From positions 1 through 39,046 of the forward strand of contig NZ_JRHO01000015.1 in assembly GCF_000765475.1 (NCBI RefSeq): a stretch of DNA of 39,046 nucleotides, written 5' to 3'. The notes below the pieces were generated by a model. That model was not told the origin of the DNA. It saw only the letters and a list, made by a program, of their open reading frames with translations, and did no database searches. The DNA comes from Methanococcoides methylutens. Lineage in GTDB: Archaea > Halobacteriota > Methanosarcinia > Methanosarcinales > Methanosarcinaceae. Shown here piece after piece: positions 35,643-38,840 of the stretch; position 1 is the first letter of the stretch, and each line of letters opens with the position of its first letter. Both the position numbers and the translations under genes were made by a program.

Positions 35643-35876
35643 TCACTGGGTTAACCATTCCCTTACCTTATCTTCGGAAGGGATCTTGCCTGCGAACTTG
35701 ACATCACCATCAACAACTAGTCCGGGAGTAACCATAACTCCATAGTCAAGTATCTTATTGATATCTTCAACCTTGATGATCTCAGCATCAATGCCTGCTT
35801 CATTTACTACTTTTTCCACGATCTCTTTTACTTTGTTGCATTTAGCGCAACCTGAACCAAGTACTTCTATTTTCAT
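35643..35876 (-). CDS. Small thioredoxin-like protein (thioredoxin_3 type)
   Basis: A 77-residue glutaredoxin/thioredoxin-fold protein starting MKIEVLGSGCAKCNKV; the longer frame adds five residues that lie over the ribosome site GAGAGGTT. The CxxC active site is Cys10-Ala-Lys-Cys13. VMVTPGLVVDGDVKFAGKIP supplies the cis-Pro that thioredoxin folds need. Such small proteins occur with ArsP/ACR3 or permease genes and probably reduce a metalloid or a partner disulfide. It has its own TATA box and a palindrome upstream. The DGC gene follows. Confidence 0.88.
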   Translation of the reverse strand: MKIEVLGSGCAKCNKVKEIVEKVVNEAGIDAEIIKVEDINKILDYGVMVTPGLVVDGDVKFAGKIPSEDKVREWLTQ

Positions 35877-35911
35877 CTTTGAACCTCTCAATGTTTTTGA
35901 TTTATGAAACT

Positions 35912-35957: not shown

Positions 35958-36647
35958 TCAATAACCTCTTCTTAATATCTCTATGAGTTCTTCTGGGTGA
36001 GGCATCTTCTTTTGTATACTCTTGCATACAGCTTCCAGATCATATTCGCATTTTATGAGCTCTACAGAATGGTTTTCAGTGTCGAAAACAGCGCAACTCG
36101 CATGTACATCCCCATTCCTTGGCTGGCCAACCGAACCGGGATTTATTATTGTCACATCACCCACCTGCCTGACAAAAGGTATATGGGAGTGACCAATGAC
36201 TATAAAGTCTGCCTCCACACCTTCGATCATGTCAAGCACCTCTTCTTCAGGAGTATCAGGCTTAATATATTCATACATCGACCTCGGGCTTCCATGAGTA
36301 AAGAGCATATTCTTTCCATCGAGAGTCCTTTCAATGTGCATCGGCAATTTCATCAGAAATCCCATATGCATGTCATCGAGCTGTCCCCACGTATATTCCC
36401 TGGTGGCTGTTGACAGATGCTTGTACTTGTAGCCGCATCCACAATCCACCTTTGAAGCCACTGCATTGTCATGATTGCCTTTGATCACTGGAATATCCGG
36501 ATCCATCAGGGATTCAATGCAACCAACCGGATCAGGACCATAGTCCACAAGATCACCAAGGCAGACAACTTCATCATGCGGTACGGAAAGTACTGCGTCA
36601 AGAGCATCCTTATTTCCATGGATATCCGATATTATCAAGAGTTTCAT
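35958..36647 (-). CDS. Metallophosphoesterase (YfcE/MJ0936-like)
   Basis: A soluble calcineurin-fold enzyme of 229 residues. Metal-binding motifs are present in order: SDIHGN (Asp8, His10), LGDLVDYGP (Asp32), KGNHDNAVA, LFTHGSP and IGHSHIPF. YfcE/MJ0936-type enzymes are small phosphodiesterases acting on model substrates; the natural target is unknown. It is 12 bp behind the ACR3 gene, so it appears to be part of the arsenic-type operon, though an organism-wide housekeeping role is equally possible. Confidence 0.88.
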   Translation of the reverse strand: MKLLIISDIHGNKDALDAVLSVPHDEVVCLGDLVDYGPDPVGCIESLMDPDIPVIKGNHDNAVASKVDCGCGYKYKHLSTATREYTWGQLDDMHMGFLMKLPMHIERTLDGKNMLFTHGSPRSMYEYIKPDTPEEEVLDMIEGVEADFIVIGHSHIPFVRQVGDVTIINPGSVGQPRNGDVHASCAVFDTENHSVELIKCEYDLEAVCKSIQKKMPHPEELIEILRRGY

Positions 36648-37741: not shown

Positions 37742-38782
37742 TCATCCAATAACGTAACCAAATCCAAGTCCTGCAAGTGTAGCAATTATAACTACAAGTG
37801 TTATGTATGAAGCACCTCTTTTTGCACCCATTATCCTGCTGATTACTATCATGTTCGGAAGACTGAGTGCTGGTCCTGCCAGAAGCATAGATAGTGCCGG
37901 ACCTTTACCCATGCCAAGAAGTGTAAGGGCACTGATAATTGGGACTTCAGTTAGTGTCGAGAAGTACATCAGGGCTCCAGAGACCGATGCGACCAGGTTT
38001 GATGAAACAGATTCGCCGCCAACGAACCGGGCAACATATTCTGAAGGAAGAACTTCCACAATTATCCCTGCAAAGAACACACCGATCAGAAGAAGAGGTG
38101 TGATCTGCTTTACGAGGAACCATGTCTCGCCCATCCATGAAGAGAGTTCCTCACGGGTGAACCATTTGAAAGACAGATAGATAGTAACAGCTATGAGGGG
38201 AATAAGTATTGCTGCCATCATTGTCCATGTACTGAATATCTCCGGAACAACAAGAATTCCTAGAAGCAGGATGAACAACATTGCACTGTTCTTGTGCTTT
38301 TCTTCTCCGAAAGTGGCGATCTTCTTCCTCTCCACATTACCTCTTTCAAACATTGCTGCCATTGTAAGTCCGATAATAATAGATAAAGAAACAGCCACAA
38401 CAGCCCTTGACACACCAAGATCATAGCCAAGGATCTTGGCAGTATAAACTATTGCAAGTATGTTTATGGCAGGTGCGGAGAAGAGAAATGTCGTTGCGGG
38501 TCCGATCCCTGCACCTCTTTTATAGATACCTGCAAATAATGGGAGCACGGTGCAACTGCACACGGCAAGAAGACAGCCTGATGCGGCTGCTACTGAGTAT
38601 GACACGTATTTTGGTGCATCTGCTCCGAAGAACTTCAATACTGATTCCTTAGAGAACAGTGATGCTATTGCACCCGCAAGAAAGAATGCAGGTATCAGAC
38701 AGAGGAGCACATGCAGCGCAAGATAGTTCTGAACTGATTGGAACCCAGCATTCATAAGATATAGTAAATAATCAGATGACAT
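37742..38782 (-). CDS. ArsP-type permease (DUF318)
   Basis: Eight- to ten-helix membrane permease, 346 residues. The N-terminal half has the signature AAASGCLLAVCSCTVLPLFAGIYKRGAGIGPATTFLFSAPAINILA with the Cys pair, and the C-terminal half repeats a related pattern (GALMYFSTLTEVPIISALTLLGMGKGPALSMLLAGPALSLPNMIVI). ArsP members export trivalent organoarsenicals; others in PF03773 have unknown cargo. It is the first gene of the operon. The transcript is probably nearly leaderless: TATA at 38804-38814 and ATG at 38782. Inverted repeats flank the TATA box. Confidence 0.88.
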   Translation of the reverse strand: MSSDYLLYLMNAGFQSVQNYLALHVLLCLIPAFFLAGAIASLFSKESVLKFFGADAPKYVSYSVAAASGCLLAVCSCTVLPLFAGIYKRGAGIGPATTFLFSAPAINILAIVYTAKILGYDLGVSRAVVAVSLSIIIGLTMAAMFERGNVERKKIATFGEEKHKNSAMLFILLLGILVVPEIFSTWTMMAAILIPLIAVTIYLSFKWFTREELSSWMGETWFLVKQITPLLLIGVFFAGIIVEVLPSEYVARFVGGESVSSNLVASVSGALMYFSTLTEVPIISALTLLGMGKGPALSMLLAGPALSLPNMIVISRIMGAKRGASYITLVVIIATLAGLGFGYVIG

Positions 38783-38783
38783 G

Positions 38784-38803
38784 ATTTCAAATAATGTTGA
38801 AAT
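38784..38803. promoter_or_regulatory. Inverted repeat between TATA box and start of the arsenic-type operon
   Basis: ATTTCAA-N6-TTGAAAT, a 7-6-7 perfect palindrome that covers the expected transcription start. Size and place fit an ArsR/SmtB-type repressor site. Confidence 0.6.
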
Positions 38804-38814
38804 ACTATATAAAC
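38804..38814 (-). promoter_or_regulatory. TATA box of the arsenic-type operon
   Basis: GTTTATATAGT on the minus strand, centred about 28 bp from the permease ATG. Confidence 0.6.
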
Positions 38815-38820
38815 ATACCT

Positions 38821-38840
38821 ATTTCAATATTAGTTGAATT
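38821..38840. promoter_or_regulatory. Second inverted repeat upstream of the TATA box
   Basis: ATTTCAA-N6-TTGAATT has the same half-site and 6-nt spacer as the repeat at 38784, with one mismatch. The centres are 37 bp apart, so a dimer bound at each would bracket the TATA box. Confidence 0.55.

Follow-up and report, generated by a model that had tools for sequence, protein, structure and literature searches.

Two 20-bp palindromes bracket the TATA box of an arsenic-type operon. With a probability of about 0.78, they are the operators of a dimeric ArsR/SmtB repressor, likely the protein referred to here as ArsR110, which would silence arsP-acr3-mpe-arsE-dgc in the absence of a thiol-binding metalloid. 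The window, that is, the whole stretch of DNA analyzed, is one entire 39,046-base contig (C15) of a 2.5-Mb draft genome; its features are listed in Table 1. Judging by gene content and relatives, the source is probably a methylotrophic methanogen of the Methanosarcina family. Both palindromes have exactly the coordinates that the initial annotation gave them. The arsP start codon occupies positions 38780 to 38782, and the center of the TATA box is 27 nt from this ATG, which makes the "nearly leaderless" start proposed earlier a fair prediction.

Table 1. Predicted regulatory elements and operon genes in the window
Feature	Position	Strand	Basis or remarks
Downstream operator (predicted), ATTTCAAATAATGTTGAAAT	38784..38803	.	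Between TATA box and arsP ATG; conserved in relatives; 27.2 bits
Upstream operator (predicted), ATTTCAATATTAGTTGAATT	38821..38840	.	Conserved in relatives; 20.2 bits
TATA box, TTTATATAG	38805..38813	-	Sequence; TATA-like element at equivalent place in relatives
Spacer adjoining TATA box, expected BRE location	38814..38820	-	Position only; inferred from archaeal promoter anatomy
arsP, ArsP_1-family permease, 346 aa, first gene of the operon	37742..38782	-	PF03773, 266.3 bits
acr3, arsenite efflux transporter, 345 aa	36660..37697	-	TIGR00832, 398.9 bits (cut-off 282.8)
mpe, metallophosphoesterase, 229 aa, conserved CxC (Cys69, Cys71)	35958..36647	-	PF12850
arsE, MTH895/ArsE-family thioredoxin-like protein	35643..35891	-	TIGR00412, 108 bits (cut-off 62)
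dgc, DGC-domain protein, 126 aa	35247..35627	-	PF08859, 114.8 bits

The operon genes follow one another on the minus strand in the order arsP-acr3-metallophosphoesterase-arsE-DGC. Its designation as an arsenic-type operon stands: Acr3 passes the cut-off of its equivalog model, so that a dedicated arsenite efflux transporter is present, and it is accompanied by ArsP_1, an ArsE-type thioredoxin, and a DGC protein. The arsP product scores below the cut-offs of the NCBIfam SO_0444 and SaoE models; therefore, its substrate is not settled. Among relatives, arsP, arsE, and dgc are the most recurrent genes, while acr3 and the metallophosphoesterase gene come and go. The CxC pair of the metallophosphoesterase is present in 34 of 34 homologs. 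A metallophosphoesterase from the ars operons of anaerobes is similar to Car1, which reduces arsenate and requires two such cysteines (PMC12124457), and judging by the description of Car1, the protein in the window may possibly be a Car1-like arsenate reductase. The ars operons of Paraclostridium contain metallophosphoesterase, acr3, arsP, and thioredoxin genes plus arsM and arsR (PMC12124457). This is much the same gene set, but arsM and arsR belong to the operon there, whereas neither is in the window. In a complete relative (G002), an rRNA operon (16S, tRNA, 23S, and two 5S genes; L057:6641-11001) directly precedes arsP in the same orientation, and the nearer 5S gene ends about 224 bp from the arsP ATG. 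By synteny with G002, the end of the window's contig (about 39006 to 39046) is probably inside that 5S gene.

Genome-wide statistics were obtained from pattern searches and a first-order Markov model trained on the window. The 2.5-Mb genome contains the full 7-6-7 pattern ATTTCAA-N6-TTGAAWT just twice, each time in the arsP promoter; the model expects 0.12 per Mb, or about 0.3 per genome. The looser core TTCAA-N6-TTGAA taken alone is at background level, with 14 places versus about 12 expected (4.96 per Mb); the 12 further loose cores outside the arsP promoter are mostly intragenic. A pair of cores 16 to 28 bp apart would arise by chance about 0.0008 times per genome; one exact pair was observed here, and a reversed control pattern yielded no pairs across 101 genomes. 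Random occurrence of the motif in intergenic DNA, which the initial annotation had named as a finding that would speak against it, thus applies to the loose single core and not to the full site or to the pair. In a scan of the whole window, a weight matrix trained on relatives only, with this genome and its nearest neighbor left out, exceeded 8 bits only at the two palindromes.

Conservation was examined in 47 arsP promoters of the same family, which had been selected for the similarity of their ArsP proteins and not for the motif. The palindrome pair surrounds a TATA-like element in 44 of them when up to 2 mismatches are allowed in the 10 arm positions, and the other three have one palindrome or degenerate ones only. 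Outside the family, exact pairs are found upstream of arsP in families f2, f13, and f16 of the phylum. In the window's genus, the ATG begins 0 to 1 nt after the downstream palindrome; in g7, a Methanosarcina-like genus, this module is set back from the ATG by roughly another 20 to 60 bp. The module of palindrome, TATA box, and palindrome therefore moves as a unit relative to the ATG, which points to control of transcription initiation. These positions also bear on the idea that the palindromes form RNA hairpins or are AT-rich inverted repeats that arose by chance, as their near-perfect inverted symmetry and the background frequency of single loose cores might suggest. With one palindrome above the TATA box and, in this genus, the ATG 0 to 1 nt past the other, neither would be in the message; moreover, the arms TTCAA/TTGAA are nearly invariant among the relatives' arsP promoters, whereas the N6 spacers vary. 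We regard this idea as hardly conceivable. An RNA element was rejected, with no match in Rfam.

The end of the upstream core is 9 bp from the TATA box in 37 of the 44 promoters. The center-to-center spacing of the palindromes is 37 bp in 21 promoters, 39 bp in 12, 40 bp in 8, 36 bp in 2, and 38 bp in 1; given this spread of 36 to 40 bp, no single helical phase is kept. Such variable spacing in the sequences argues against strict dimer-dimer contact and lends no support to the cooperativity originally proposed. Of the two sites, the upstream one has the more constant distance to the TATA box, and it is immediately above the BRE, where archaeal activators can act. One palindrome could then be activating and the other repressing, with a regulator bound upstream recruiting TFB/TBP and occupancy of the downstream site causing repression. 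We find this division of roles quite improbable, given that the path to the transcription start runs across the downstream site, that ArsR/SmtB proteins are usually repressors, and that both sites have one common consensus.

Which protein may bind these sites? No open reading frame in the window was identified as ArsR, and none of the 18 HTH_5 matches in the genome is on contig C15. One of these 18 matches is ArsR110, an orphan 110-aa ArsR/SmtB protein encoded on contig C5 (G000:C5:42616-42945). Its winged-helix domain scores 44.5 bits with PF01022 (cut-off, 22) and 65.6 bits with NF033788 (cut-off, 55), and the CxC metal-binding box in the DNA-binding domain reads LCVC or LCAC in all 23 distinct orthologous proteins. 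ArsR110 has two cysteines per subunit throughout the window's genus, and a third, N-terminal one is present in a few others. With only two cysteines in this genus, it does not have the three-thiol arsenite site of R773 ArsR (Cys32, Cys34, and Cys37). The third thiol is a variable feature of the ArsR/SmtB family that bears on the ligand and not on membership. A two-thiol site suits methylarsenite and could be enough for arsenite as well. A PDB search returned only Listeria Lmo1102, at 32 bits. The genome also encodes several small HTH_5 proteins without CxC, for example, a 97-aa protein in L003, also L021 (C2), which were not counted as arsenic sensors.

Orthologs of ArsR110 are present in 10 of 10 genomes of the window's genus that have this arsP and in 8 of 8 sampled g8 genomes. 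In all seven genomes of two other genera (g4 and g14) having an ortholog, its gene is 184 to 522 bp from a palindrome pair: divergent from arsP in G044, G051, G088, G092, and G098; divergent from arsE2-dgc2-arsP2 in G082; and near a pair preceding an MFS transporter gene in G065. The probability of such closeness by chance is estimated at about 0.001 each, on the assumption that a genome of roughly 2.7 Mb holds one or two pairs; with so few pairs, the closeness in 7 of 7 genomes is not due to chance. The g4/g14 orthologs form one clade with ArsR110 of the window's genome (support, 98/97). Together with the arsR genes found in or beside such operons elsewhere, this linkage supports well, at the sequence level, control by an ArsR-type protein encoded outside the window, and this part of the initial reading is retained. 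A DUF6951 protein of about 104 aa is encoded between the palindrome pair and arsR110 in L180, L196, and L197; in L184, the same gene is beside the pair with no arsR110 nearby. One ortholog beside arsP (G092:C71:66845-67165; L128) contains one in-frame TAA, reflecting a broken gene or a sequence error.

The inverted repeats are not tied to ArsR110 everywhere. Its ortholog is absent from most Methanosarcina-like, g3, and g4 genomes that keep the palindromes; thus, the partner differs between lineages. A palindrome cluster without a detected ArsR110 was also found in G071, a genome that is 76% complete. In f13 and f16, a CVC-type ArsR is encoded 1.4 to 1.8 kb from the pair on the same strand as arsP; in the Methanosarcina-like operon, the operator is paired with a CAC-type ArsR, and in G135, a CAC-type ArsR is 88 bp from a site. 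As other lineages pair the operator with ArsR proteins other than ArsR110, the regulator in this genome might likewise be another ArsR, above all a 118-aa protein (G000:C9:183.9 kb) that precedes an ArsP-type permease, has a CVC motif, and scores higher as an HTH_5 match. However, this protein belongs to a separate cluster, where its gene follows a transport ATPase/permease pair, and its surroundings (L001 and L020) contain no TTCAA-N6-TTGAA site and a single weak match of 13.5 bits; in the window's genus, no CVC protein of the 118-aa type was seen beside the arsP palindromes. We therefore consider it an unlikely regulator of the operon. ArsR110 remains the preferred candidate. Its own promoter in this genome contains no site above 8 bits by the weight matrix, and autoregulation was rejected here.

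The sites extend beyond arsP. In this genome, arsE2-dgc2-arsP2 (C10, about 193.5 kb) is preceded by three sites (L101 positions 2020, 2058, and 2083), the first two of which are degenerate. A CMD-family gene (C2:166591-166971; L105 and L200) has the motif about 113 bp upstream, and the motif precedes 27 of 30 orthologs of this gene, compared with 79 of 1,500 random windows (5%). In relatives, the motif is found before arsE2-dgc2-arsP2, mpe, arsP2, uspA-acr3, and dgc. A DNA-binding protein of a different family could use the palindromes, with the arsR linkage being incidental: binding by ArsR is a prediction from sequence, and inverted arms of 5 to 7 bp are used by several families. Yet all seven g4/g14 arsR110 genes are within 522 bp of a pair in genomes that hold one or two pairs, and the regulon consists mostly of arsenic-type genes, leaving little probability for such a protein. 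The CMD-family protein has a cysteine-rich C terminus, and in G044, G051, and G058, its ortholog shares a contig with arsP and lies downstream of it in the same orientation. A 16.1-bit site is located in the interval that separates the gene for a MerR/GyrI-like regulator from a divergently oriented URO-D-family gene (C2:24390-24405; L097). In G037, G059, and G068 (L145, L146, and L157), a look-alike palindrome, ATTTCAATTATTTTTGAAAC, precedes the ribosomal protein L3 gene by about 18 bp.

ArsR/SmtB operators are recognized as inverted repeats over the core promoter of a metal(loid) operon with a linked arsR; the repeats are in this position here, and arsR is linked in relatives but unlinked in this genome. 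From these features we infer DNA binding, one dimer per palindrome, repression, and the inducer. One ArsR dimer would lie next to the TATA box on its BRE side and a second on its other side, ahead of the transcription start/ATG, and both together would exclude TBP/TFB and RNA polymerase. The repressor would then come off when the CxC pair of its DNA-binding domain takes up an arsenical. ArsR110 would also control arsE2-dgc2-arsP2 and the CMD-family gene.

This arrangement combines elements of several known systems. NrpR-type repression in archaea acts on nitrogen genes through paired palindromes. It is similar in that an archaeal repressor uses palindromic operators at a TATA promoter, but the protein is unrelated, the half-site is different, and the targets are nitrogen genes. 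With bacterial ArsR/SmtB control of ars genes, the present system has in common a small winged-helix protein that carries a CxC metal-binding box, arsenic efflux targets, and inverted-repeat operators overlapping core promoter elements (PMC5658604). TtSmtB of Thermus thermophilus has one site, at the -35 box (PMC5658604), and Escherichia coli ArsR has one imperfect repeat at -64 to -40 (the E. coli and Bacillus subtilis proteins are reviewed in PMC12607644). In contrast to these bacterial systems, the promoter here is of the archaeal TATA/TFB type, and two operators bracket the TATA box. As in Thermus, the candidate regulator and its predicted targets are apart in the chromosome. In Shewanella putrefaciens, an MMAs(III)-responsive ArsR drives an arsP promoter (PMC12124457); it resembles our candidate, by description, as an ArsR protein for which an arsP target is predicted here.

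Our literature searches found no matching archaeal ArsR operator and no arsenic repressor operator or regulon described in Methanosarcina-type methanogens. Three details are new here: a pair of operators on either side of an archaeal TATA box, a regulator encoded as an orphan, and an operator that stays fixed while its regulator changes. A broader scenario, which we consider doubtful though worth stating, is a regulon common to methanogens whose ArsR, with two cysteines, responds to trivalent methylarsenicals, and not to arsenite, via operators clamping the TATA box on both sides, with the arsR gene being swapped between lineages under a fixed operator. The analysis provides a consensus that can be tested, names a candidate repressor, and points to three target units within a single genome, and it is relevant to archaea of habitats in which arsenic undergoes methylation and demethylation. 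Such a layout would show how a bacterial-type repressor can go about blocking an archaeal TATA promoter from both sides.
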